In this document: positions 14,100-28,803 of the stretch, piece by piece
Numbering within the stretch: the first letter of the stretch is position 1
How the letters are laid out: every line of letters starts with the position of its first letter
Assembly: GCF_005876955.1 (NCBI RefSeq)
Contig: NZ_SSCL01000018.1
Location: forward strand, 1-63,652
Reading direction: 5' to 3'
Origin: Sinomonas gamaensis
Lineage (GTDB): Bacteria > Actinomycetota > Actinomycetes > Actinomycetales > Micrococcaceae
DNA: 63,652 nucleotides
Made by a program: the position numbers and the translations under genes
Notes under the pieces: generated by a model
The model's input: only the letters and a program-made list of their open reading frames with translations
What the model was told of the DNA's origin: nothing
Databases searched by the model: none

Positions 14100-15266
14100 T
14101 CAGCTCGAGTACGCGCTGTTTTCATGCACGTAGTCGTGCGTGAGGTCGTTGGTCAGAATGGTCGCCTCCGCCTCACCCGCGGCGAGGTCGATCTCGACGA
14201 GGACTTCTCGCGGTTCGAGGTCCACGAGCGAGCGGTCGTCCCCGATGCCGCCCTTGCGGCACACCTGGACGCCGTTGATCGCGACATTGAGCTCGTCCGG
14301 GTCGAAGACGGCGTCGGTCGTCCCCACGGCGGAGAGGACCCGACCCCAGTTCGGGTCCTTGCCGAAGATCGCGGTCTTGAACAGGTTCGACCGGGCGACG
14401 GCCCGGGCCACGATCTCGGCGTCGCTCTCGGAGGCGGCGTTGAACGCCCGGATGGCGATGTCGTGGCTCGCCCCCTCGGCGTCGCCGATGAGCTTGCAAG
14501 CAAGCTCGGCGCACACCTGGGTGAGCCCGGCGGTGAAATCCGGTGCGTCGGGCACGGCGCCCGAGGCGCCGGACGAGAGGAGGACGACCGTGTCATTGGT
14601 GGACATGCAGCCGTCCGAGTCGGCCCGGTCGAACGTCACGCGCGCCGCGTCGCGCAGGGCCGAGTCGAGGAACTCGGGGGCTGCCGCCGCGTCGGTGGTG
14701 AGGACCACGAGCATGGTCGCAAGACCGGGCGCGAGCATGCCCGCACCCTTCGCGATGCCGCCGATCGTGTACGGCGTGCCCTGTGCGTCCGCTCCCGTGA
14801 AGACGGCCTCCTTCGGCACGGTGTCGGTCGTCATGATCGCGACGGCGGCGTCATGCCCGCCGTCGTCGGCCAGAACGGCCGCGGCGGACTCGACGCCCGG
14901 AAGGATCTTGTCCATGGGCAGCTGCTCGCCGATGAGCCCCGTGGAGCACACCACCACGTCGCCTGCGGAGATCCCGAGGACCTCGGCCGTCTTCTCCGCG
15001 GTGCGATGGGTGTTCTGGAAGCCTTCCGCCCCGGTGCAGGCATTCGCCCCGCCCGAGTTGAGGATCACGGCGTCGGCGCGCCCGTCGGCGATCGCCTGCC
15101 GGGACCAGCGGACCGGGGCCGCCGCGACGCGATTCGAGGTGAAGACGGCAGCGGCGTTCCGGTCCGGGCCGTCGTTGACCACGAGGGCCAGATCGGGCTT
15201 GCCCGAGGCCTTGATCCCGGCGGTCACGCCGGCGGCCCGGAAGCCCTTGGGTGCGGTCACGGTCAC
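14100..15266 (-). CDS. argJ: Bifunctional ornithine acetyltransferase / N-acetylglutamate synthase
   Basis: Recycles the acetyl group between acetylornithine and glutamate. The 388-residue precursor has [10 protein letters not shown] near residue 71 and an ATML autocleavage site (PGLATMLVV) whose Thr becomes the N-terminal nucleophile of the beta chain. Both precursor length and motifs fit the family. The GTG start overlaps the argC stop by four bases (GTGA). Confidence 0.96.
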
Positions 15267-16309
15267 GGGGCGACTCCCAGCTGTGCGAGGCCGGCGCCCT
15301 CAGGGAGCCCCAGCGCGATGTTCATGGACTGCACCGCTCCGCCGGCGGTGCCCTTGGTGAGGTTGTCGATGACGGAGCTCACGATCACCCGCCCGGCGTG
15401 CGGATCGAAGGCGAGCTGGATCGCCACGTTGTTCGAGCCGATGACCATCTGCGTCGCCGGCCACTGGCCCTCGGGCAGGAGATGGATGAAGGTCTCGTCG
15501 CCGTAGGCCGTCTCCCAAGCAGATCTCAGAGCGGAGGCGGCGACGCCCTCCTTCACGCGCGCCGTCGCCGTCGTCAGGATTCCGCGGCTCATGGGGGCAA
15601 GCGTCGGCGTGAAGGAGACCCGGACCGATTCGCCCGCGGCGTTCGACAGGCCCTGCTCGATCTCGGGAGTGTGGCGGTGGCCGCCGCCGACCCCATACGG
15701 GCTCATCGACCCCATGACCTCAGACCCCAGCAGATGGGGCTTGACGGACTTGCCGGCGCCCGAGGTGCCGGACGCGGACACGATCACCACGTCGTCGGCC
15801 TCAAGAAGCCCCGCGGCGAACCCCGGCACCAGCGCGAGCAGCGCCGACGTGGGGTAGCAGCCCGGAACGGCGATGCGGCGCGCTCCCTTGAGCTTCTCGC
15901 GTTGGCGATGGCCGCCGTCGAGCATCAGCTCAGGAAGCCCGTACGGCCACGTGCCGGCATGCTCGGACCGGTAGAACTTGAACCAGGCCTCAGGATCCTC
16001 GAGGCGGTGATCGGCCCCGGCGTCGATCACGAGCGTCGACTCGGGAAGCTGCGCCGCAACCTCGGCCGAGGCTCCGTGCGGCAGCGCGAGGAAGACCACG
16101 TCGTGGCCTGCGAGGTTCTCGGGGGTCGTCTCGACGATGACGCGATCGGCGAGCGACAGGAGATGCGGCTGGAGCTCGCCGAGCCGGCTGCCCGCACTGC
16201 TGTGCGCGGTAATGGCCCCGATCTCGATCTCAGGGTGATTGGCGAGCAGTCGGAGGACCTCTCCCCCGGCGTAGCCGCTGGCCCCGGACACTGCTGCGGT
16301 AATAGTCAC
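15263..16309 (-). CDS. argC: N-acetyl-gamma-glutamyl-phosphate reductase
   Basis: NADPH-dependent reductase and first gene of argCJBDFR. The 348-residue protein begins [19 protein letters not shown] (nucleotide-binding loop) and has the active-site Cys in [11 protein letters not shown]. The start used is the GTG at 16309: a -10 TATAGT ends seven bases upstream, so the mRNA is probably leaderless and begins at this codon. Other in-frame ATGs up to 16345 lie inside the promoter and operator and are rejected. Confidence 0.95.
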
Positions 16310-16315
16310 CTGACC

Positions 16316-16357
16316 ACTATAGGCAAAGTTATGCAGCGTTATCAATATTTATGCATT
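16316..16357 (-). promoter_or_regulatory. argC promoter overlapped by ARG-box-like operators
   Basis: On the minus strand -35 TTGATA (16345-16340) and -10 TATAGT (16321-16316) are 18 bases apart. AT-rich repeats of the form TGCATAAATATTGAT and CTGCATAACTTTGC (within 16357-16322) overlap the -35 and the spacer. TGCATAA-type half sites resemble actinobacterial ARG boxes. The placement fits direct occlusion by ArgR. Confidence 0.68.
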
Positions 16358-16432
16358 CGGCATTCGAGGGCGCGCCCCTAGGATGGGACGCGGACGAGAA
16401 CTCAGGAAAGCTGTGCCGAAAGAGGAAACTCC

Positions 16433-17398
16433 ATGATCAATGCCATCGTTGCCCGAGAGGCGGGAGGCCCCGAAGTCCTCTCCCTCACGGAGGTCGAGAA
16501 GCCCCAAGTCGGCCCCGGCCAGCTCCTTGTGAAGGTCGCCGCGGCCGGTGTCAACTTCATTGAGACCTACCAGCGCCGCGGCATCTACAACGTGCCCTTC
16601 CCCTTCACCCCGGGCGAAGAGGCATCCGGGACCGTCGAGGAGATCGGCGGCGGCGTGGAGGGATTCGCCGTCGGGGACCGCATCGCCACCGCCGAAGGGC
16701 GACGGACCTACTCCGAGTACATGGTCGTCGACGCCGAGAAGGCACTCCCCGTTCCGGAGGCCCTCGACTTGGAGACGGCCGCCGCGCTTCCCCTCCAGGG
16801 CATGACGGCGCACTACCTCATCAATTCGAGCTTCCGGGTGGAGCCGGGCCAGACGGTGCTCGTGCACGCCGGCGCAGGGGGCGTGGGCCTCCTGCTGATC
16901 CAGCTGCTCAAGGCCAAAGGGGCCCGCGTCATCACAACGGTCTCGACGGACCAGAAGGCCGCGCTCGCCGAGGGCGCCGGCGCGGACCACGTGATCCGCT
17001 ACTCAAGCTTCTCGGAGCACGTGCGCGAACTCACCAACGGCGCCGGCGTCGACGTGGTGTACGACGGCGTTGGCCGCGACACGTTCGACGGCTCGCTCGG
17101 CTGCCTGCGCGTGCGGGGCTATCTCGTGCTTTTCGGTGCCGCGTCGGGTCCTGTCCCGCCAGTGGACCCCCAGCGACTGAACGCCGGAGGGTCGCTGTTC
17201 CTCACCCGTCCGACCCTCAAGCACCACCTGCTCAATCCCCAGGAGCGCCTGTGGCGGTCCTCGGAGATCTTCTCCGCCGCGGCCGACGGATCGCTGACCG
17301 TGCGGATCGGCGCGACGTTCCCGCTCGCGGAGGCCGCCGACGCCCACCGCGCGCTTGAAGGCCGCGCGACCACCGGCAAAGTCCTCCTGGTTCCCTAG
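16433..17398 (+). CDS. NADPH:quinone oxidoreductase (zeta-crystallin type, zinc-free MDR)
   Basis: A 321-residue medium-chain reductase. It has the quinone-reductase N-terminus (GVNFIETYQRRGIY, FPFTPGEEASGTVEEIG), LPLQGMTAHYL, and the NADPH-binding loop HAGAGGVGLLLIQL near residues 143-156, with no structural-zinc cysteines. A GAGGAAACTCC ribosome-binding site precedes the ATG. The next gene, the large Pls-type synthetase, starts 12 bases after its stop, so they are probably co-transcribed; a role in the same pathway is only suggested by that spacing. Confidence 0.92.
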   Translation: MINAIVAREAGGPEVLSLTEVEKPQVGPGQLLVKVAAAGVNFIETYQRRGIYNVPFPFTPGEEASGTVEEIGGGVEGFAVGDRIATAEGRRTYSEYMVVDAEKALPVPEALDLETAAALPLQGMTAHYLINSSFRVEPGQTVLVHAGAGGVGLLLIQLLKAKGARVITTVSTDQKAALAEGAGADHVIRYSSFSEHVRELTNGAGVDVVYDGVGRDTFDGSLGCLRVRGYLVLFGAASGPVPPVDPQRLNAGGSLFLTRPTLKHHLLNPQERLWRSSEIFSAAADGSLTVRIGATFPLAEAADAHRALEGRATTGKVLLVP

Positions 17399-17410
17399 CC
17401 CCAGCACTCC

Positions 17411-20400
17411 GTGAGCGACCCCCAGCTCGTCTCCCCCGAGGCTCTGGAGCAGCGGCACGGGCCGCAGCTCCCGGCATCGGCGCGAACTCCGCCCGCGCGG
17501 ACGCTCCTCGACGTCCTGCTCGCGACAGCCGAGGCGTTTCCGGAATCCCCCGCACTCGACGACGGCGAGCGCGTGCTGAGCTACGCGGAGCTCCTCACCG
17601 AGGTCCGGGCTGTAGGCCGCCGGCTCCACGCCGCGGGGCTGGGAGCCGGGGACCGTGTGGGCGTCCGCATCCCCTCAGGGACGAACGAGCTGTACGTCGC
17701 GATCCTTGCGATCCTCCTGGTCGGCGCCGCGTACGTGCCCGTGGACGCGGATGATCCCGACGAGCGGGCCAAGCTCGTCTTCAGTGAGGCCGGCGTGGCG
17801 GGGATTGTGCGCAGTGGCTCGTCGCTCGTCGTCGACCGGAAGCGGCCCGCTCCGTTCCCCGATCCGCGCCTTCCCGGCCCCGACGACGACTGCTGGATCA
17901 TCTTCACCTCGGGCTCCACCGGGACGCCGAAGGGCGTTGCCGTACGTCATCGCTCGGCCGCCGCCTTCGTCGATGCGGAGGCGCGGATCTTCCTGCGCAA
18001 CGAGCCGATCGGCCCCGAGGACCGCGTCCTGGCCGGCCTCTCGGTGGCCTTCGACGCCTCGTGCGAGGAGATGTGGCTCGCGTGGCGCCATGGCGCCTGC
18101 CTCGTTCCCGCCCCACGTGCCCTCGTGCGCACCGGCATGGACCTTGGCCCGTGGCTCGTACAGCGCGGTATCACCATCGTCTCGACGGTTCCGACCCTCG
18201 CCGCGCTCTGGCCCAGTGAGGCGCTCGAGAACGTCCGGCTCCTCATCTTCGGCGGCGAGGCCTGCCCGCCCGAGCTCGCCCAGCGCCTCGCGGTGGAGGG
18301 CCGCGAGGTGTGGAACACGTACGGCCCCACCGAGGCCACCGTGGTTGCCTGCGCTGCTCAGCTGGGAGGCTCCGGGCCCGTGCGCATCGGCCTTCCGCTG
18401 GACGGCTGGGACCTCGCGATCGTCGACTCCCACGGCGTGCCCGTGCCCGAAGGCGGCGTGGGCGAGCTCATCATCGGCGGCGTCGGCCTCGCGAGATACC
18501 TCGATCCGGCGAAGGACGCCGAAAAGTACGCCCCCATGCCCTCCCTCGGCTGGGACCGCGCCTACCGTTCGGGCGACCTCGTGACCTTCGACCCCGCGGG
18601 CCTTGTGTTCCAAGGCCGCGCCGACGAGCAGGTCAAGCTCGGCGGGCGGCGGATCGAGCTCGGCGAGGTCGACGCCGCACTGCAGGCGCTCCCCGGGGTC
18701 GCGGGGGCCGCCGCAGCGGTGCGGACGACGGCGGCCGGGAACCAGGTGCTTGTCGGCTACCTCGCGTCGGCCGACGGTGGGGACCTGGATCTCGCAGCCC
18801 TCCGCGAGCGGCTCGCAAAAGCCCTCCCCGCTGCCCTCGTGCCGCTGCTCGCCGTCGTCGACCTCCTCCCCACGAAGACCAGCGGCAAAGTGGACCGCAA
18901 CGCGCTCCCCTGGCCGCTTCCCGGCACAGACGAGGGATCGGGCGAGCCGCTCGATCTCCCGGAGGACGCGGCGTGGGTCGTCGCCCAGTGGGGGTCCGTT
19001 CTGGGGACCCCTGCCTCGAGCCTCGACGCGGACTTCTTCGCCCACGGCGGCGGCTCGCTCGCGGCGGCGCAGCTCGTCTCGGCCCTGAGGGTCCGGTACC
19101 CCACGGTCACCGTGGCCGATGTCTATGCCCACCCACGGGTCGGCGCGCTCGTCGAAGCCGTCACCGGCGGCGGTCCTGCGACCGCAGCTGCCGTCGTCGA
19201 GCGCTCGGTAGCCCCCGCCTCGGCGAGAACCCAGCTCGCCCAGACCCTTCTCGGCATCCCGCTCTTCATCCTCGTGGGGATGCGCTGGCTCACGTACCTC
19301 ATGGCGGGGAACAACGTGCTCTCCGCCGCGGGCTTCCCGGGTGCGCCGACAGTCTCCTGGTGGTGGGTTGCTGCCTCGTGGCTCGTGTTCGTCAGCCCGC
19401 TCGGCCGCATGGCGATCTCCGTCGTGTCCGCGCGCCTCCTCCTCCGGGGCCTCGCCCCCGGAAGGTATCCCCGGTCCGGCTCGGTCCACGTGAGGCTATG
19501 GCTCGCCGAGCAGATCGCCGACCTCGCCCAAGCAGTGAGCCTCGCCAGCGCGCCCTGGGTTCCCTATTACGCCCGGGCGCTCGGGGCGAAGATCGGGCGC
19601 GACGCCGTACTTCACTCGGTGCCTCCCGTCACGGGGATGCTCGAACTCGGACGGGGGGCCTCGGTCGAGCCAGAGGTGGATCTGGCCGGGTGGTGGATCG
19701 ATGGCGACTGGGTGCACATCGGGCCGGTGCGGATCGGCCCGGGTGCCACGATCGGTTCCCGGAGCACGCTCCTCCCCGGAGCTCAGGTCGGCGCGAATGC
19801 CGTGGTCGAACCCGGTTCCGCGGTGTCTGGCAGGGTCAAAGCCGGCCTGCGGGTCTCCGGCTCCCCTGCCGAACGGATCGGCAAGGCCAAGCAGGACTGG
19901 CCGGAGGCCGCCCATCACCGTGGACGGGTCCTCGAAGGCCTCTGGATCACTGTCTTTGCTGCCGCCTCCTCGCTTCTGGCCCTCATCCCGTATCTGTCGG
20001 CGTCTGCGGCGGGGGCGGTCCTCGTCTGGGCCGCGGCCGGGCATGCCAGCCTCCACGACGCTCTTCCCGCGATCCTCGCCGCAGCTCCCCCCGCGGCCGC
20101 CGTCTGGTTTGCCGCGAACCTCCTGCTCGTCGCGGGGTGCACACGGCTGCTCGGCCTCGGCCTGCGTGAAGGCACCTATCGCGTCCGCAGCAGGATCGGA
20201 TGGCAGGTGTGGGCCACGGAGCGTGTCCTCGATCTGGCACGCGATCTGCTCTTCCCGCTCTACGCCAGCCTTTTCACTCCTACTTGGCTCCGCCTGCTGG
20301 GCGCCACCGTGGGCAAGGACGTCGAGGCATCTACCGTGCTCTTGGTGCCGAAGATGACGACGGTGGGGGACGGCGCGTTCCTCGCCGACGACACGATGGT

Positions 20401-21340
20401 CGCCTCCTACGAGCTCGGCGGCGGCTGGCTTCGCGTCGGTCCGGCCAAGATCGGCAAGCGGGCGTTCCTCGGCAACTCGGGCATGACGGCCCCGGGCCGC
20501 TCTGTGCCGAAGAACGGGCTCGTGGCGGTCCTTTCCGCCACGCCGAAGAAGGCAAAGACCGGTTCGTCATGGCTCGGCAGCCCGCCCGTGCGCCTTCGCC
20601 GCACGTCGCTCGAGACCGACACGTCCCGGACCTTCAGCCCGCCCGCCCGGCTCAAACTTGCCCGCGCCCTGTGGGAGCTGTGCCGAGCGGTGCCGGTGGT
20701 GCTCAGGGTGGCGATCGCCGCCGTCGTCCTCGCGGCGCTCGACTGGCTCGCCGCGCACTGGGGCTACCTCCTGACGGCGCTCGTGTGCGGCGCCGTCCTG
20801 CTGGCCGCCGGCGGCCTCGCAGCGGCGATGGCGACGGCGGCGAAGTGGCTCCTGGTGGGCCGGATCCGTTCCGGGGAGCATCCGCTGTGGAGTTCGTTCG
20901 TGTGGCGGAATGAGGTGGTGGACGCGTTCGTGGAGATGGTCGCCGCGCCGTGGTTCGCCCGGGCCGCCTCCGGGACCCCGGCGCTCGTCTGGTGGCTGCG
21001 GTCTCTGGGAGCGCGGATCGGCCGAGGCGCGTGGTGCGAGAGCTACTGGCTCCCCGAGGCGGATCTCGTGGAGCTCGGTCCCGGTTCCACCGTCAATCGA
21101 GGCTGCGTCGTGCAGACTCATCTCTTCCACGATCGGATCATGAGCATCGACGCCGTGCGCCTGCACGAGGGTGCGACTATGGGGCCCCACGGCGTCATAC
21201 TTCCCGGAGCGAGCCTCGGTCCCGGGGCCACGGTGGGGCCTGCGTCCCTCGTGATGCGCGGCGAGTCCATCCCGGGCGGAACGTACTGGCGTGGCAACCC
21301 GGTGGGTCCGTGGTCAGAACCGAAAGTGCCGACCCGATGA
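17411..21340 (+). CDS. Pls/PosA-family membrane nonribosomal peptide synthetase (epsilon-poly-lysine-synthetase-like)
   Basis: A 1309-residue single-module synthetase with the layout of epsilon-poly-L-lysine synthetase. An adenylation domain spans about residues 20-510 (FTSGSTGTPKGVAV; FDASCEEMWLAW; NTYGPTEATV; YRSGDLV; TSGKVDRNALP). A carrier domain follows with the phosphopantetheine Ser549 in HGGGS. Then come hydrophobic pairs near 612-670, 840-915 and 1085-1150, alternating with three soluble acyltransferase-like domains rich in hexapeptide-type repeats (about 735-820, 960-1060, 1195-1309). There is no condensation or thioesterase domain, as in Pls, which makes variable-length isopeptide polymers itself. 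The substrate is probably a cationic amino acid (acidic Glu in the A4 motif), by inference. The GTG start has no clear ribosome-binding site. It overlaps the M1 peptidase gene (ATGA). Confidence 0.9.
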   Translation: MSDPQLVSPEALEQRHGPQLPASARTPPARTLLDVLLATAEAFPESPALDDGERVLSYAELLTEVRAVGRRLHAAGLGAGDRVGVRIPSGTNELYVAILAILLVGAAYVPVDADDPDERAKLVFSEAGVAGIVRSGSSLVVDRKRPAPFPDPRLPGPDDDCWIIFTSGSTGTPKGVAVRHRSAAAFVDAEARIFLRNEPIGPEDRVLAGLSVAFDASCEEMWLAWRHGACLVPAPRALVRTGMDLGPWLVQRGITIVSTVPTLAALWPSEALENVRLLIFGGEACPPELAQRLAVEGREVWNTYGPTEATVVACAAQLGGSGPVRIGLPLDGWDLAIVDSHGVPVPEGGVGELIIGGVGLARYLDPAKDAEKYAPMPSLGWDRAYRSGDLVTFDPAGLVFQGRADEQVKLGGRRIELGEVDAALQALPGVAGAAAAVRTTAAGNQVLVGYLASADGGDLDLAALRERLAKALPAALVPLLAVVDLLPTKTSGKVDRNALPWPLPGTDEGSGEPLDLPEDAAWVVAQWGSVLGTPASSLDADFFAHGGGSLAAAQLVSALRVRYPTVTVADVYAHPRVGALVEAVTGGGPATAAAVVERSVAPASARTQLAQTLLGIPLFILVGMRWLTYLMAGNNVLSAAGFPGAPTVSWWWVAASWLVFVSPLGRMAISVVSARLLLRGLAPGRYPRSGSVHVRLWLAEQIADLAQAVSLASAPWVPYYARALGAKIGRDAVLHSVPPVTGMLELGRGASVEPEVDLAGWWIDGDWVHIGPVRIGPGATIGSRSTLLPGAQVGANAVVEPGSAVSGRVKAGLRVSGSPAERIGKAKQDWPEAAHHRGRVLEGLWITVFAAASSLLALIPYLSASAAGAVLVWAAAGHASLHDALPAILAAAPPAAAVWFAANLLLVAGCTRLLGLGLREGTYRVRSRIGWQVWATERVLDLARDLLFPLYASLFTPTWLRLLGATVGKDVEASTVLLVPKMTTVGDGAFLADDTMVASYELGGGWLRVGPAKIGKRAFLGNSGMTAPGRSVPKNGLVAVLSATPKKAKTGSSWLGSPPVRLRRTSLETDTSRTFSPPARLKLARALWELCRAVPVVLRVAIAAVVLAALDWLAAHWGYLLTALVCGAVLLAAGGLAAAMATAAKWLLVGRIRSGEHPLWSSFVWRNEVVDAFVEMVAAPWFARAASGTPALVWWLRSLGARIGRGAWCESYWLPEADLVELGPGSTVNRGCVVQTHLFHDRIMSIDAVRLHEGATMGPHGVILPGASLGPGATVGPASLVMRGESIPGGTYWRGNPVGPWSEPKVPTR

Positions 21341-22695
21341 GCCCCGACAACCGCACCGAAGACCCGTACACGCCCGGCCATGGAAGCAAGGCGTATCTGG
21401 TGAGGCGCTACGAGCTGGACCTCGACATCAGGCTCTCGAGCAACCGTCTTGACGGCCGAGCGCGGATCCTGGCGGCCGCGGCCGAGGATCTCGATGCGGT
21501 GGTGCTCAGCCTCGCCGGCCTCAAGGCCTCGAAGGTGAGGGTCAACGGTTCCAAGCCCGCCAAGGTCGCCCAGCGCGGCGACACTCTGGTAGTCCGGCCT
21601 GGCACCCCGATTCCGGCGGGAGCCGACTTCGAGCTTGATATCCGCTACGAGGGATCGCCCAGTCCGTCCCGTGGCCTCTGGGGCGATGTCGGCTGGGAGG
21701 AACTCGAGGACGGTGTGCTCGTTGCCGGGCAGCCAACGGGGGCACCCACGTGGTTCCCATGCAACGATCACCCGCAGCACAAGGCCACCTTCCGCATCGC
21801 GGCCACGGCGGACTCCGGGTACCGCGTGATCTCCAACGGTCTGCTCGTGGGGCAGCACCGGAAGTCGAGCCGGGAGACGTGGGTCTACGAACAGCACGAG
21901 CCGATGGCCCCCTATCTCGCGACCCTCATCATCGGCCGGTACCGGGAGCTCGAGCTGGGCAGGTGTGCGAACGAGGGCGCGCCGATGGTCACGGTGAGAG
22001 CCGCCATCCCGCCCATGCTCCACGTGGAAGCCCAGTCGGGGCTCGCGGATCAGGTGCGCATGGTCGAGCTGTTCACCGAACTGTTCGGGCCATACCCGTT
22101 CGCGGAGTACACCGTGGTGGTCACCGAGGATGAACTCGAGATTCCCCTCGAGGCGCAGACGCTCTCCATCATGGGCCGAAATCACATCACAGCGGATTGG
22201 GACGACCAGCGTCTCCTCGCCCACGAGCTCGCCCACCAGTGGTTCGGCAACTCGGTCACCGCGGCGAGGTGGCAGGACATCTGGCTCCACGAAGGCTTCG
22301 CCTGCTATGCCGAGTGGCTCTGGAGCGAGCACGCCGGGCTGGGGACGGCGCAAGAGCGCGCGACGGCCGCCTGGCGCCGCCTCGACAGCGGGCCGCAAGA
22401 CCTCGAGATCGGACGCCCGGGGCCCGAGCTCATGTTCGACGATCGGGTCTACAAGCGCGGCGCGCTCACGCTGCATGCCCTGCGGATTGCTGTCGGGGAT
22501 GCCCTCTTCTTCCGGTCGCTGCGCACTTTCGGGTCAGAGCACCGCCACGCGAACGCCTCAACCGAGGACTTCCTCCGGGTGCTCGATCGCGTATGCGCTG
22601 GCGTGCCCGGATTCAAGGCCCACGAGGTTCTCGAACGCTGGCTCTACCGGCAGGCCCTCCCGGGACTGCCGGACTCGGACGTCATCCGGACCTGA
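21337..22695 (+). CDS. M1 family zinc metallopeptidase
   Basis: A 452-residue aminopeptidase-like protein. The catalytic zinc motif HELAH is at residues 296-300, with the third ligand Glu319 in WLHEGF (HEXXH-X18-E); the usual GAMEN exopeptidase motif is replaced by LEAQT. The ATG overlaps the synthetase stop codon by four bases, so the two are translationally coupled. The family fold is clear; its role is inferred from the neighbour. Epsilon-poly-lysine producers are known to contain a zinc aminopeptidase that degrades the polymer, so trimming or self-protection is a reasonable guess. No signal peptide is visible. Its last 14 bases overlap the convergent transferase gene. Confidence 0.9.
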   Translation: MSPDNRTEDPYTPGHGSKAYLVRRYELDLDIRLSSNRLDGRARILAAAAEDLDAVVLSLAGLKASKVRVNGSKPAKVAQRGDTLVVRPGTPIPAGADFELDIRYEGSPSPSRGLWGDVGWEELEDGVLVAGQPTGAPTWFPCNDHPQHKATFRIAATADSGYRVISNGLLVGQHRKSSRETWVYEQHEPMAPYLATLIIGRYRELELGRCANEGAPMVTVRAAIPPMLHVEAQSGLADQVRMVELFTELFGPYPFAEYTVVVTEDELEIPLEAQTLSIMGRNHITADWDDQRLLAHELAHQWFGNSVTAARWQDIWLHEGFACYAEWLWSEHAGLGTAQERATAAWRRLDSGPQDLEIGRPGPELMFDDRVYKRGALTLHALRIAVGDALFFRSLRTFGSEHRHANASTEDFLRVLDRVCAGVPGFKAHEVLERWLYRQALPGLPDSDVIRT

Positions 22696-23329
22696 GCGCT
22701 AGCGCCGCCACGAACCCCTCCGGCAACCCGAGTCCGGCCGTGTCGATGTCGGTGACGCGGGGGTCGTCGAGGACCTCCACCGTAGCCGGATCTGTCCTGA
22801 GGCCGGATCCGAGTGCCTTGAGAAGGGCCTCCTTGCGAGCCCACAGCCGCGCAGCTGCAATGGCGGGCCGGGCGGCGAGTCCCAGATGACGGCGTTCGGC
22901 GGGCGAGAAGGCCGCCACCGGAATAGTGCGGCGCAAGTCCGCCACGGCGACGAGGTCCACGCCGATCGCGCGGCCGCCGTCGTCCCCGAGGCGCTCGACA
23001 GCGAAGAGGGCCCATCCGCCGGCGCGCGAAGCGCTGGCGGTCACGGGCACGGCGGAGACGGGGCCGCCGTCGTCATCCTCGCGGAAAGCGAAGCGCGGCG
23101 CGCCGTGCTCGCCCGCGCCGCAGTCGGGGCATTCGTACGCGGGCCGCACCCGTTCGGGATCGAGTGCCGCGGCCTGGGCCACGAGACCCCGCAGAGCACG
23201 GCGCGCCGCGAGGAATTCGTCCGCCCGCCGCGCATCGAGCATGGCCCGAGCGCGCGCGTCCTCCTCCGCCGTCGCCTCGCCGACGGGCCACGGCGGAGTG
23301 CACCCGAGCCAGAGCGCCCGGAGCATCAT
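22682..23329 (-). CDS. 4'-phosphopantetheinyl transferase superfamily protein
   Basis: A 215-residue Sfp-type transferase, which attaches phosphopantetheine to carrier-protein serines. Motifs are GVDL at residues 123-126 (metal-binding Asp), FSPAERRHL around 141-149 and WARKEALLK at 163-171. It starts 25 bases after the pheT stop codon, so it probably rides on the pheST transcript, and it converges on the M1 peptidase gene with a 14-base overlap. The adjacent carrier domain (Ser549 of the Pls-like enzyme) is the obvious substrate, by inference. The start is ATG-ATG with no strong ribosome-binding site. Confidence 0.88.
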   Translation of the reverse strand: MMLRALWLGCTPPWPVGEATAEEDARARAMLDARRADEFLAARRALRGLVAQAAALDPERVRPAYECPDCGAGEHGAPRFAFREDDDGGPVSAVPVTASASRAGGWALFAVERLGDDGGRAIGVDLVAVADLRRTIPVAAFSPAERRHLGLAARPAIAAARLWARKEALLKALGSGLRTDPATVEVLDDPRVTDIDTAGLGLPEGFVAALALRSG

Positions 23330-23354
23330 GACGTCGCCGTGGCCGCGCTGCGGC

Positions 23355-25901
23355 TCAGCGCTGGACGGCCCCGAAGCGCTCCGCGGCGCGGGCGACGGCA
23401 GAGGCCCTGGCTTCTGACGCCTCGTCTGCCGTCAGCGTCCGGTCCGGGGCACGGAAGCGCAGGCCGAAAGCGAGCGATTTCTTGCCCTCATCGATGCCCT
23501 TGCCCGAGTAGACGTCGAAGAGGTGGACCTCTTCGAGCAGCTCGCCTGCGCCCTCGCGCAGCGCCTCCTTGACATCGTCCGCGGGGACTGCGGCATCCAC
23601 AATCAGGGCGACGTCCTGGGTGGCAACGGGGAAGGTCGAGATGTGCTTGGACACAATGACGTCGGGCGCCGCCTCGAACAGGGCATCGGCGTCGAGCTCC
23701 AGGGCCGCCGACCGGGCCGGCATGTCGTAGGCGGCGAGCAGCTTCGGGTGCAGCTCGCCCGCGTAGCCCACGACCTCGCCGGTGCGCAGCGCAAGCTGCG
23801 CCGTGCGTCCGGGGTGGAACGCCTGATGAGCGCCCTGAGCGATGACCAAGTCGACACCGAGGACGTCCGAAGCAAGGCGCGCGATGTCGATGGCGTCGGC
23901 CCAATCCCAGGCCCGCGGCGTGTGATGGGCTCCCTCGGGCGAATCGTGGCCGGTGAGGATCACCCCGATGTGGAGGGGCTGGCTGGGAATGCCCGCCTCG
24001 AGGGCGTCCAGCACGTCCTCGGTTGGCAGCGCTCCCAGCGGCGGGATCGTCGCCGTGCCGATCGGTCCGTCGTCGGGAAGGAAGACAAGGCCGGCCTCGA
24101 AGAGCGCCAGATCGCGGAAGCCTCGCGAGTGGTTCCGCTTCGCGACCTCGATGAGGCCAGGGAGCATCGATGTCCGGAGCCAGCCGAGCTCCTCGCTCAA
24201 CGGGTTCGCGAGCTTGACCGCCGGGCGGGGCGCGCCTGCCTCGGCGACGCCGAACGTCTCGTTCGCTGCCTTGGCGACGAACGGGTACGCGAGGATCTCC
24301 GTGAGGCCCGCGTCGGCGAGGGCCTGCACGAGGCGACGGCGCTGCTGCTGCTTCCTGGTGAACCCGCGCCCCGGAGGCGCCACCGGGAGCCGCGACGGAA
24401 TCTTGTCGTAGCCGACGAGACGGGCGACCTCCTCCGAGAGATCCTCCTTCGTCTCCAAATCCCCGCGCCAGCTCGGCGGCGTGACCAGGAAGTCGGACTC
24501 ACTGCGGTCGACGCTCGCTCCGAGGTCGCCGAGGGTCCTCGCAATGAGCTCCTCGCTGAACTCCATGCCGATCCGCTCCGAGGCGAAACCGGCCGGCAGG
24601 AAGATCTGCACGGGCTCGGGGGCCACGCCGATGTCCGTCCCCGCACCGTCGGCCACTCCGCCGCCGAGTTCCACGAGGAGGTCGACCACGCGCTGAGCCG
24701 CCTCGTCGGCCACCTGCCAGTCGACGCCGCGCTCGAAGCGCTTGGACGCCTCAGAGGGCAGCTTGTGACGACGGCGTGAGCGGCCCACGGTCACGGTGTC
24801 GAAGTGCGCGGCCTCGACGAGCACATTGACCGTCGAGTCCGAGCACTCGGTCGATGCGCCGCCCATCACGCCGGCGATGCCGATCGGCCCCGACTCATCG
24901 GTGATGAGCAGGTCCTCGGGGTCGAGTTCGCGGACCTTGCCGTCGAGCGTCTCGAGCTTCTCGCCCTCCTCGGCACGCCGGACCGTGATGGGTCCGGAGA
25001 GCCGGTCGAGGTCGTAGCAGTGCGTGGGCTGGCCGAGTTCGAACATGACGTAGTTCGAGATGTCCACGGGCAGCGAGATCGAGCGGACCCCCGCGAGCCG
25101 GAGGCGCGACACCATCCACTGGGGCGTGGGGCGCGTCGGGTCGATGCCGCGCACGGTGCGCGCCACGAAGCGGTCGCAGCCGAGCACGCCGTAGATCGGG
25201 GCGCGGTCGTCGAGCACGACGTCGTAGCCTCCTTCGAGCTTCGCCGGCGGCGTCACCCGCGTGGCCGGGTCCTCGAAGGTGGTGCCCGTCGCGTGCGCGT
25301 ACTCGCGGGCGATGCCGCGGATGGAGAAGCAGTAGCTCCGGTCCGGGGTCACGTTGATCTCGGCGGCTTCGTCGTTCAGGCCCAGCAGTTCGAGGGCGTC
25401 GGTGCCGACCTCGGGATCGAGCCCGAGGCGGGAGAGGACGATGATGCCGTCGTGGTCCTCGCCGATCCCGAGCTCACGGGCGGAGGCGATCATGCCGGCC
25501 GAGAGGTGGCCGTAGGTCTTGCGGGCGGAAATGTGGAAGTCGCCCGGCAGCGTCGCGCCGGGGAGGGTCACTACGACCTTGTCGCCCTCGACGAAGTTGT
25601 GGGCTCCGCACACGATCCCCTGCACGCCGGACGGGTCGATGCCCTTGCCCGTGAGCTTCTGCTCCTGGCCCTCCGGAACCACTCTGACCTGGCACCAGTT
25701 GATCGTCTTGCCGTTCGACTGGGGTTCCTTGACGAGGCTCAGAACCTGCCCGACAACGATCGGACCCTTGATGCTCTCGGACGGCCGATGGACGGCTTCC
25801 TCCTCGAGGCCCACCGAGACAAGGTCGGCCATGAGGTCTTCTGCCGTCGCGTCGGCAGGAAGCTGCGTGTACTCGCGCAGCCACGAAAGGGGGATTCGCA
25901 T
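23355..25901 (-). CDS. pheT: Phenylalanyl-tRNA synthetase beta subunit
   Basis: Beta chain of the heterotetrameric class II enzyme. The 848-residue protein has MRIPLSWLREY at the N-terminus, an EMAP/tRNA-binding domain (CGAHNFVEGDKVVVTLPGA), B3/B4 editing-type domains, the B5 domain (VGRSRRRHKLPSEASKRFERGVD), and a C-terminal ferredoxin-fold anticodon-binding domain (HISTFPVATQDVALIVD). It starts 6 bases after the pheS stop codon. Confidence 0.97.
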   Translation of the reverse strand: MRIPLSWLREYTQLPADATAEDLMADLVSVGLEEEAVHRPSESIKGPIVVGQVLSLVKEPQSNGKTINWCQVRVVPEGQEQKLTGKGIDPSGVQGIVCGAHNFVEGDKVVVTLPGATLPGDFHISARKTYGHLSAGMIASARELGIGEDHDGIIVLSRLGLDPEVGTDALELLGLNDEAAEINVTPDRSYCFSIRGIAREYAHATGTTFEDPATRVTPPAKLEGGYDVVLDDRAPIYGVLGCDRFVARTVRGIDPTRPTPQWMVSRLRLAGVRSISLPVDISNYVMFELGQPTHCYDLDRLSGPITVRRAEEGEKLETLDGKVRELDPEDLLITDESGPIGIAGVMGGASTECSDSTVNVLVEAAHFDTVTVGRSRRRHKLPSEASKRFERGVDWQVADEAAQRVVDLLVELGGGVADGAGTDIGVAPEPVQIFLPAGFASERIGMEFSEELIARTLGDLGASVDRSESDFLVTPPSWRGDLETKEDLSEEVARLVGYDKIPSRLPVAPPGRGFTRKQQQRRRLVQALADAGLTEILAYPFVAKAANETFGVAEAGAPRPAVKLANPLSEELGWLRTSMLPGLIEVAKRNHSRGFRDLALFEAGLVFLPDDGPIGTATIPPLGALPTEDVLDALEAGIPSQPLHIGVILTGHDSPEGAHHTPRAWDWADAIDIARLASDVLGVDLVIAQGAHQAFHPGRTAQLALRTGEVVGYAGELHPKLLAAYDMPARSAALELDADALFEAAPDVIVSKHISTFPVATQDVALIVDAAVPADDVKEALREGAGELLEEVHLFDVYSGKGIDEGKKSLAFGLRFRAPDRTLTADEASEARASAVARAAERFGAVQR

Positions 25902-25907
25902 GATTGC

Positions 25908-26978
<1,071 letters not shown>

Positions 26979-27058
26979 TTACGCAGCGGGCGGGGTTTCG
27001 CCCCCAGTCTAGTGGACCGCCCGCTCACCTCTGGGCCGCGTGCCTCCACACGGCTACC

Positions 27059-27712
27059 GTGAGAGGCGTGGTACGCAAGCCTGACGTTGTGGTGGTCACC
27101 GGCACGGGCACTGTGCGAGCGATTCCGGATCTCGCCGTCCTCAGCCTTGCCGTCGAGGTGCGTCACGCCGGACTCCAAGGCTGCTATTCAGGTGCGGCCG
27201 CGGCAGCGACCCGCGTCGTCGAGGCTGTCACGTCCCTGGGAATAGCGCGCGCGGACGTCCGGACCACAGGCCTGTCCCTGCGGAGCGAGACGGTGTGGCG
27301 GGAGCAGAGCGGCCAGCAGGTGGTCGCCTACGTCGCGACTACCGGGCTCACCGTTGTGGTGCGGGAGCTCGCCCGCGCACCCGAGGTTCTGGACGCCGTC
27401 GTGCGGTCGGGCGGCGAGGCCCTCAGGGTCCATGGCCTCGCGCTCGAGGTGAGCGACGCGAAGCAGGCGGCCGCGGCGGCCCAGGCTGGGGCTTTCGACG
27501 ATGCGCGGGACGCAGCTGAGCGGCTGGCGGCAAAGGCGGGGCGGGAACTCGGGGAGGTCGTGCGGATCGACGCCGCGCCGCACGTCCTGCCGGGCCCTCC
27601 GATCCCGATGGCGCGGGTGGCCCTTGCCAGCTCCACCGAGGCCATGCCTGTGGAGGCCGGTGAGACGGAGATCAGCTCGTCCGTCACCGTCACCTGGCGC
27701 CTCCGCGATTGA
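27059..27712 (+). CDS. SIMPL domain protein (DUF541)
   Basis: A 217-residue protein with the SIMPL/DUF541 layout: an initial VVVTGTGTVRAIPDLAVLSLAVEV strand pair, then VRTTGLSLRSETVW and a C-terminal SSSVTVTWRL strand. Family members form oligomeric periplasmic or membrane-associated rings of unknown biochemical role. No signal peptide is seen, which is common in actinobacterial members. The start is uncertain: GTG at 27059 or GTG at 27068, the latter with GAGAGG too close upstream. It is divergent from pheS. Confidence 0.82.
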   Translation: MRGVVRKPDVVVVTGTGTVRAIPDLAVLSLAVEVRHAGLQGCYSGAAAAATRVVEAVTSLGIARADVRTTGLSLRSETVWREQSGQQVVAYVATTGLTVVVRELARAPEVLDAVVRSGGEALRVHGLALEVSDAKQAAAAAQAGAFDDARDAAERLAAKAGRELGEVVRIDAAPHVLPGPPIPMARVALASSTEAMPVEAGETEISSSVTVTWRLRD

Positions 27713-27737
27713 CATTGCCTAGAACATGTATTCGAAT
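27709..27737 (+). promoter_or_regulatory. SOS promoter of the radical SAM gene (LexA box)
   Basis: A consensus -35 TTGACA (27709-27714) and a -10-like TCGAAT (27732-27737) are 17 bases apart. TAGAACATGTATTCGA at 27720-27735 matches the actinobacterial LexA palindrome TCGAAC-NNNN-GTTCGA at 10 of its 12 fixed positions and fills the spacer. The predicted start of transcription coincides with the ATG at 27745. Confidence 0.7.
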
Positions 27738-27744
27738 GAGAGAC

Positions 27745-28803
27745 ATGCGATGGAACACGCAGACGACGCACGGCGAGAGCAACGAGACTCAGCCCGGTGA
27801 AGCTCCTCTGATCCCCCTCGCGGGGCTTCTTCGCGCCGTCCGGACGCCGGAGTTCCACGGCATCACCTTCCATGAGGTCGCCGCGAGATCGGCGCTCAAC
27901 AAGGTGCCGCCGGCGTCCTCCATGCCATTCCGATGGACGATCAATCCGTATCGCGGATGCAGCCACGCGTGCGTCTACTGCTTCGCCCGGGGCACTCACC
28001 AATACCTCGACCTCGACGCAGGGCTCGACTTCGACCGTCAGCTCGTGGTCAAGGTGAACGTCGTCGAGGTGCTGCGCGCCGAGCTCGCACGAGCATCGTG
28101 GAAACGCGAGCACGTCGCCTTGGGGACGAACACCGACCCGTACCAGCGTGCGGAGGGCCGCTACGCCCTCATGCCCGGCATCATCCGGGCCCTCGCGGAT
28201 TCAGGGACGCCGTTCTCCATCCTCACCAAGGGAACCCTGCTCGCACGGGATCTCCCGCTGCTCAAGGCTGCCGCAGCGCACGTCCCGGTCAGCGCTGCCA
28301 TTTCGCTCGCCGTCCTCGACCCCGAGCTGCAGGCCCATCTCGAGCCCGGGACCCCCACCCCGTCCGCCAGGCTCACTCTCATCTCCAAGCTCCGGGACGC
28401 CGGGTTGGCGTGCGGGGTCATGGCGATGCCGATCCTGCCGTGGCTCACCGACGGAGAAGAGCATCTCGATGCACTCTTCGGCGCCCTCTCGGCCGCTGGC
28501 GCTACAGGAGTGACCGCCGGGGCGCTCCACCTCCGCCCGGGCACGAAGGAATGGTTCATGCAGTGGCTCGCCCGCGAACACCCCCAGCTCGTGGGACCGT
28601 ATGCCCGCCTCTACGGAAAGGGGGCCTACGCGCCGAAGGAGTACCGGACGTGGCTCGCCGGACGCGTGAACGCCGCGAAGTCACGCCACCGCTTCGCGGG
28701 GCAGCCGGGCTTCGCCCATCGCATGGGGGCCGGAGGCACCGACGCCGAGCATCATGAGTCGGCAAGCCCGCGATCCCAGACGGTGCAGGAGCAGCTCTTC
28801 TAG
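27745..28803 (+). CDS. Radical SAM protein, Rv2578c-like
   Basis: A 352-residue radical SAM protein with the [4Fe-4S] motif CSHACVYC preceded by INPYRG, near residues 71-79, and the block GTNTDPYQRAE. This is the class annotated as Rv2578c family and distantly related to spore photoproduct lyase. The reaction is unknown. The start at 27745 (MRWNTQ) is preferred because MRW is the family start and it falls seven bases after the -10. A LexA-type site in the promoter suggests DNA-damage induction. Its stop codon overlaps the stop codon of the convergent Nudix gene. Confidence 0.88.
   Translation: MRWNTQTTHGESNETQPGEAPLIPLAGLLRAVRTPEFHGITFHEVAARSALNKVPPASSMPFRWTINPYRGCSHACVYCFARGTHQYLDLDAGLDFDRQLVVKVNVVEVLRAELARASWKREHVALGTNTDPYQRAEGRYALMPGIIRALADSGTPFSILTKGTLLARDLPLLKAAAAHVPVSAAISLAVLDPELQAHLEPGTPTPSARLTLISKLRDAGLACGVMAMPILPWLTDGEEHLDALFGALSAAGATGVTAGALHLRPGTKEWFMQWLAREHPQLVGPYARLYGKGAYAPKEYRTWLAGRVNAAKSRHRFAGQPGFAHRMGAGGTDAEHHESASPRSQTVQEQLF

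Follow-up and report, generated by a model that had tools for sequence, protein, structure and literature searches.

Epsilon-poly-L-lysine, produced with Streptomyces, is used commercially to preserve food (PMC8117764; this and the other papers cited by PMC number are used here through excerpts). In Streptomyces albulus, the gene pldII adjoins the synthetase gene pls in one operon, with a 4-base-pair (bp) overlap, and the enzymes Pld and PldII degrade the polymer (PMC4361855). PldII is an endo-type enzyme translationally coupled to pls, and chains are longer on repression (PMC9223678), yet inactivation of both degrading enzymes left production and degree of polymerisation unchanged (PMC8506220); because these two reports conflict, 'trimming' of the polymer by the peptidase is unsettled. 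Genera with Pls homologues also include Arthrobacter, Micrococcus and Glutamicibacter; lysine is the predicted substrate, and the pockets match those of confirmed Pls enzymes exactly or very closely (Jiang et al., 2021; PMC8117764). Among these coryneform homologues, whose holders as excerpted do not include Sinomonas, a product was shown only for that of Corynebacterium variabile, for which a pls-peptidase operon was described and the product is epsilon-poly-L-lysine. Here we describe a locus of Sinomonas gamaensis on a stretch of 63,652 nucleotides (assembly GCF_005876955.1, contig NZ_SSCL01000018.1, positions 1 to 63,652 of the forward strand), hereafter the window, in which a Pls-type synthetase gene, an M1 peptidase gene and a phosphopantetheinyl transferase gene lie together (Table 1). 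As judged from sequence, this is very probably a pls-pldII operon of the epsilon-poly-L-lysine kind. The system itself is already known and the locus is a well-formed Sinomonas example of it; a first-pass annotation of the stretch, which knew of no product for such a locus in Arthrobacter-like bacteria, is outdated on that point (PMC8117764). Our literature search found no paper joining Sinomonas with poly-L-lysine.

The locus resembles the S. albulus pls-pldII operon, as excerpted, in synthetase architecture, in the ten-residue substrate pocket and in having the peptidase gene directly downstream with a 4-bp overlap. The pls gene opens with a GTG codon and closes with TGA at 21338-21340, and the ATG of the M1 gene at 21337 makes the letters ATGA (21337-21340) common to both genes, so the overlap of synthetase stop and peptidase start recorded in the first-pass annotation stands. 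The M1 and transferase genes are convergent, their 3' ends overlapping tail to tail by 14 bp; this Sfp-type transferase is a difference from the S. albulus operon. A limited literature search found no description of a phosphopantetheinyl transferase beside pls, and the excerpts of PMC4361855 mention one in a gene-enrichment passage, not as a pls neighbour. In non-filamentous host, Pls plus peptidase operon and predicted lysine pocket, the locus is also like that of C. variabile and the other coryneforms (PMC8117764).

The synthetase matches TIGR02353, the Pls/PosA terminal domain, across residues 610-1298 (716.5 bits against a cut-off of 423.1), preceded by an AMP-binding domain at residues 39-362 and a carrier at 522-584; Pfam gave no match to a condensation or thioesterase domain. 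Together with hhalign, these searches bear out the 1309-residue enzyme of the first pass, with adenylation and carrier domains, three acyltransferase-like domains and neither condensation nor thioesterase domain. The genome-mining label for the Pls class is NAPAA. By sequence, the closest solved chain is PDB 7wew, an epsilon-poly-L-lysine synthase that we take to come from S. albulus (667 bits, residues 16-505), and among the best 80 of 588 relatives Sinomonas notoginsengisoli (L021) has 80% synthetase identity. The pocket, DAESIGTVVK, is the same in all ten positions in the window synthetase, in 7wew and in 100 of 101 aligned relatives, the sole exception (L100) being a protein that has no adenylation domain. 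GrsA motifs served to fix the register of the pocket, and the published PosA code (PMC10522769) agrees with it.

The pocket bears on whether this member of the Pls family could instead use a diamino acid other than lysine (ornithine, diaminobutyrate, diaminopropionate or beta-lysine) and make a different polycation. Such enzymes exist in the family (PMC10522769, PMC4668381, PMC8117764), and sequence is by itself no measure of substrate preference, but the identity with the lysine-type 7wew at 10 of 10 positions makes this very improbable, and we rejected it. Position 2 of the pocket has been tied to chain length, with alanine in lysine-type enzymes, methionine in PosA and phenylalanine in the diaminopropionate and diaminobutyrate types (PMC10522769). 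PosA, the delta-poly-L-ornithine synthetase of Acinetobacter baumannii, shares family and domain order with the window enzyme, but its pocket is DMEHNGTVSK, with methionine at position 2 and serine at position 9, and, unlike the window, its gene has no obvious co-transcribed neighbours in the account excerpted; the beta-lysine type pocket, DGESISVVNK, differs as well (PMC10522769). The poly-diaminopropionate synthetase of S. albulus PD-1 likewise shares the layout of adenylation domain, carrier and C1-C2-C3 (PMC4668381), but its monomer is made via cysteine-synthetase-like and ornithine-cyclodeaminase-like proteins, neither of which is among the nine neighbouring proteins scanned (15263-28803). 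A peptidase neighbour, moreover, is a gene context unlike that of the diaminopropionate and diaminobutyrate synthetases (Jiang et al., PMC8117764). The comparison with characterised enzymes suggested in the first pass thus places the window enzyme with the lysine type and apart from PosA.

The three soluble domains C1-C3 are mutually homologous by hhalign (probability 98.7% for C1/C2, 98.9% for C1/C3 and 96.8% for C2/C3, on shallow alignments of 28 rows). In PDB searches, C1 and C3 weakly matched gamma-carbonic anhydrases and acetyltransferases of the hexapeptide-repeat type (best E 1.6e-4 and 2.6e-5), including maltose transacetylase for C1 and gamma-carbonic anhydrase and hexapeptide transferases for C3, while C2 was placed by hhalign only. 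Given this mutual homology and the weak matches of C1 and C3, 'acyltransferase-like' is a fair description. As for the membrane helices said in the first pass to alternate with these domains, a hydropathy scan found hydrophobic stretches at about residues 609-632, 840-876, 884-918 and 1087-1144, which back five of the six helices of the family; the second helix of the first pair (about 648-672, by eye) fell under the threshold, and two stretches of the soluble adenylation domain (91-114 and 468-487) passed it falsely. The six-helix layout of the window synthetase is therefore a prediction from the family.

An M1 gene also accompanies pls in relatives. These were collected by a scan of genome contigs, from which we took the best 80 of 588 confirmed, split by genus name into 35 Micrococcaceae and 45 others, together with phylum-search loci having about 1.5 kb of flank. 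In all 80, an M1 gene lies downstream of pls on the same strand, the hit ends lying within about 200 bp in 75 and 0.6-2.2 kb apart in five. An M1 start giving the identical 4-bp overlap is possible in 28, with another overlap in 22 and a short gap in 23; the remaining seven have no M1 start between -60 and +80, namely the five with M1 0.6-2.2 kb away plus L009 and L015, which we take for artefacts of a match running past the pls stop (a stop is present in the translation for L009, and the same is assumed for L015). Among phylum-search loci with an adenylation domain, 19 of 20 have M1 beside pls, none being seen in the available flank of L106, and a Pls encoded on a Kitasatospora plasmid also has an M1 gene beside it. 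Plasmids of Mycobacterium avium and M. intracellulare carry matches to synthetase residues 18-627.

A general aminopeptidase co-transcribed with pls by chance, rather than a polymer-degrading enzyme, is one alternative for the M1 protein. M1 enzymes are usually peptide aminopeptidases, the best PDB sequence match and closest solved structure is the compact M1 metalloprotease 6a8z, and the start of the protein is not signal peptide-like. H296, E297, H300 and E319, presumably the HEXXH-18-E motif of M1 enzymes, do not vary in either of two alignments (13 and 18 sequences), and neither does E272, which we take to occupy the position of the exopeptidase motif. Against chance association, this M1 type follows the Pls domain across a fixed set of 80 Micrococcaceae genomes (G000-G079): with Pls-positive defined as a best TIGR02353 E below 1e-140 (n = 42), and at a chosen threshold of E up to 1e-60, the M1 type occurs in 38 of 42 Pls-domain genomes and in none of the 38 without, while the genome of S. 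gamaensis itself holds two other, larger M1 frames. The pls-adjacent PldII of S. albulus, moreover, degrades the polymer (PMC4361855, PMC9223678). A general aminopeptidase is accordingly quite unlikely, and we favour a PldII-like enzyme, 48-52% identical to the M1 proteins that follow pls in four genomes taken as Streptomyces. Of 295 Micrococcaceae genomes, 162 have a TIGR02353 match above the cut-off, as do 14 of 15 genomes from the genus of the window (that of S. gamaensis included) and 22 of 296 sampled phylum-wide; these counts take in proteins without an adenylation domain.

The third gene is also what it had been called, a carrier-activating transferase abutting on the other strand. PF01648 is matched above its cut-off, and D125, E145, W163, K166, E167, A168 and K171 are invariant in 16 aligned sequences, the conserved D, E, W and KEA presumably marking an Sfp-type phosphopantetheinyl transferase of the ACPS superfamily. 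In its own genome PF01648 has two matches, the window transferase and a 125-residue frame of AcpS size, which leaves the former as the only Sfp-type transferase found there. PP-binding has three: a 116-residue frame of AcpP size, the Pls carrier, and the carrier of an 869-residue protein on contig C12 (G000:C12:8350-9873; L126:454-3063) that also has AMP-binding and Acyl_transf_3 domains. The window transferase is probably the activator of Pls and probably serves one more client; as the sole Sfp-type enzyme in a genome with one further carrier not of AcpP size, it need not be dedicated. The joint making, activating and trimming or detoxifying proposed in the first-pass annotation is thus supported by linkage and intact residues.

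How close the tie to the synthetase is can be judged from gene order. In the 35 Micrococcaceae loci, the transferase is adjacent and convergent in 22, further down in four, elsewhere or in another orientation in three, and lacking in five, with no room in one. In the genome set, it occurs (E up to 1e-6) in 39 of 42 Pls-domain genomes and 11 of 38 without, and stands on the opposite strand within 6 kb (the distance limit chosen) of the M1 gene in 32 of the 38 M1-bearing genomes. By position in those 38, it is adjacent and convergent in 22, further downstream in six, on the upstream side in four and absent from the contig in six; in G022, G049 and G072 it lies beyond the pls start on the opposite strand, and in G041, counted in the 32, it is 188 bp upstream of the M1 gene, its order relative to pls being ambiguous. 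The neighbourhoods in which the first pass had proposed to look for linkage therefore tie M1 to the synthetase among relatives and the transferase likewise in Micrococcaceae. This could nevertheless be mere synteny, with the transferase simply a neighbour in an argC ... pheT-pheS region and without special tie to the synthetase. Genes of that region, argC or others, do flank the cluster in the window and in 17 of the 27 adjacent-convergent loci, such that linkage could be inherited order; the transferase is also found in genomes without a Pls domain, as counted above, and 39 of the 45 loci outside Micrococcaceae have none near pls. The other 10 of the 27 loci, however, have no argC, quinone-reductase or pheT gene in their available flanks, and the transferase lies upstream of pls on the opposite strand in L035 and L036, as in the three genomes just named. 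The synteny explanation is weakened by these cases and, while possible, is the less probable one. Since those 10 loci lack all three markers, the linkage is probably more than inherited gene order.

Just upstream in the window, a quinone-reductase-like gene (16433-17398) ends 12 bp before pls and may be co-transcribed with it; a gene of this kind is found just 5' of pls in many Micrococcaceae loci at the argC site.

The locus is under purifying selection. At 395 of 397 columns with at least 97% agreement of 100 relatives, S549 among them, the window synthetase keeps the common residue, the two others being I for V. Loss of catalytic residues, a concern of the first pass, was not seen: the key residues of pocket, carrier, peptidase and transferase are intact. 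By counting against S. notoginsengisoli, the ratio of non-synonymous to synonymous substitution rates (dN/dS) is 0.16 for pls, 0.29 for M1 and 0.36 for the transferase, compared with 0.21 for the quinone reductase, 0.14 for pheT, 0.10 for pheS and 0.10 for argC, rough values from one species pair with high dS (0.76-1.04). On these figures pls is constrained like a core gene, with M1 and the transferase looser. The conserved columns and a dN/dS close to that of pheT argue that the synthetase match is not due to chance, and a degenerate or dead pls was rejected on the same two counts.

Taken together, the parts suggest the following scheme. The neighbouring Sfp-type transferase would arm the Pls carrier with phosphopantetheine, and the adenylation domain would then activate L-lysine with ATP and load the carrier. 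The membrane-embedded C1-C3 domains would join lysyl units through the side-chain amine, building a polycationic isopeptide at the membrane that would be released without a thioesterase. The coupled M1 peptidase would cut the polymer, either to protect the producer from its toxicity or to recycle it. By analogy with characterised relatives, we would expect the lysine substrate, the isopeptide linkage, the polymer cutting and the action of the transferase on the Pls carrier to hold here too.

Several observations weigh against this interpretation. No polymer was detectable in C. variabile culture or via its gene in C. glutamicum; the gene did work in S. coelicolor when driven by an S. albulus pls promoter (PMC8117764). 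The window locus may therefore be silent. Outside Micrococcaceae, the transferase is adjacent in five of the 45 loci, with none in the available flanks of 39 and no room in one, so it is not an obligate part of the system. No M1 is annotated beside the Pls gene on plasmid pROB01 of Rhodococcus opacus B4 (L136:4953-8831), so pls and M1 do not always go together. Likeness to PldII goes through the pls-adjacent M1 proteins only, not a PldII of known accession, and by eye the M1 N-terminus has no signal peptide-like start, whereas S. albulus is reported to have its PldII activity at the cell surface (PMC9205021). Four of the 42 Pls-domain genomes lack M1 at E up to 1e-60 (G007, G037, G048, G060); in G007 and G037 the TIGR02353 matches lie in frames of 973-1094 residues, too short for a full synthetase, and the G007 protein (L129) has carrier and terminal parts but, by eye, no adenylation domain. 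Finally, the association counts were taken among related genomes with shared ancestry ignored, and Fisher values computed from them exaggerate how independent the genomes are.

A second kind of TIGR02353 protein was also observed, without an adenylation domain and with one to four tandem carriers before a Pls-type terminal domain. Pfam counts four carriers in L127, three in L128 and one in L130, those of L129 being read by eye only. In L127 the protein is followed by a separate adenylation-carrier protein, a TauD-like gene and an ornithine-cyclodeaminase-family gene, and in L130 by an adenylation-carrier-thioesterase protein; it looks like a split, multi-carrier relative of Pls. Some Micrococcaceae genomes (G159, G118, G082, G029) have two or three TIGR02353 matches in frames of full-synthetase length, by frame length only.

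Table 1. Features of the locus in the window, followed by loci of the second kind of TIGR02353 protein.
Feature	Position	Strand	Basis
pls, Pls/PosA-family single-module non-ribosomal peptide synthetase, predicted epsilon-poly-L-lysine synthetase, 1309 residues	17411..21340	+	TIGR02353, 7wew match, pocket code
Adenylation domain, pocket D215 A216 E219 S258 I279 G281 T303 V311 V312 K493	17489..18910	+	
Carrier (thiolation) domain, phosphopantetheine serine S549 in GGGSL	18974..19162	+	PF00550, 44.2 bits
C1, first acyltransferase-like (hexapeptide-repeat) domain	19478..19906	+	Hexapep PF00132 at residues 773-806
C2, second acyltransferase-like domain	20153..20620	+	hhalign to C1 and C3
C3, third acyltransferase-like domain	20843..21325	+	Weak PDB matches, hhalign to C1
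PldII-like compact M1 zinc metallopeptidase, 452 residues	21337..22695	+	PF01433 and PF17900
Sfp-type 4'-phosphopantetheinyl transferase, 215 residues	22682..23329	-	PF01648, 45.9 bits against a cut-off of 25
Second-kind TIGR02353 locus	L127:249-8138		
Second-kind TIGR02353 locus	L128:2615-5725		
Second-kind TIGR02353 locus	L129:3083-5992		
Second-kind TIGR02353 locus	L130:3631-9751		

What these comparisons would add to the known system is the consistent transferase link in Micrococcaceae, a modest one, and the close co-occurrence of Pls and M1; we found neither count in the literature, the search for the transferase link being limited. Judging by the co-occurrence, the peptidase would be a permanent component of the system. 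A bolder and rather doubtful idea is that pls, M1 and transferase in Micrococcaceae form a cassette kept and moved as a unit, with pls housekeeping-like and the polycation in a lasting envelope or acid-stress role rather than that of an occasional antibiotic; if so, demand would govern when the polycation is made, armed and recycled. Soil actinobacteria that do not form filaments, and whose pls-pldII-like operon is intact, constrained and linked to an activator gene, are possible alternative sources of the polymer, and the question of why bacteria keep epsilon-poly-L-lysine becomes testable in easily grown hosts.

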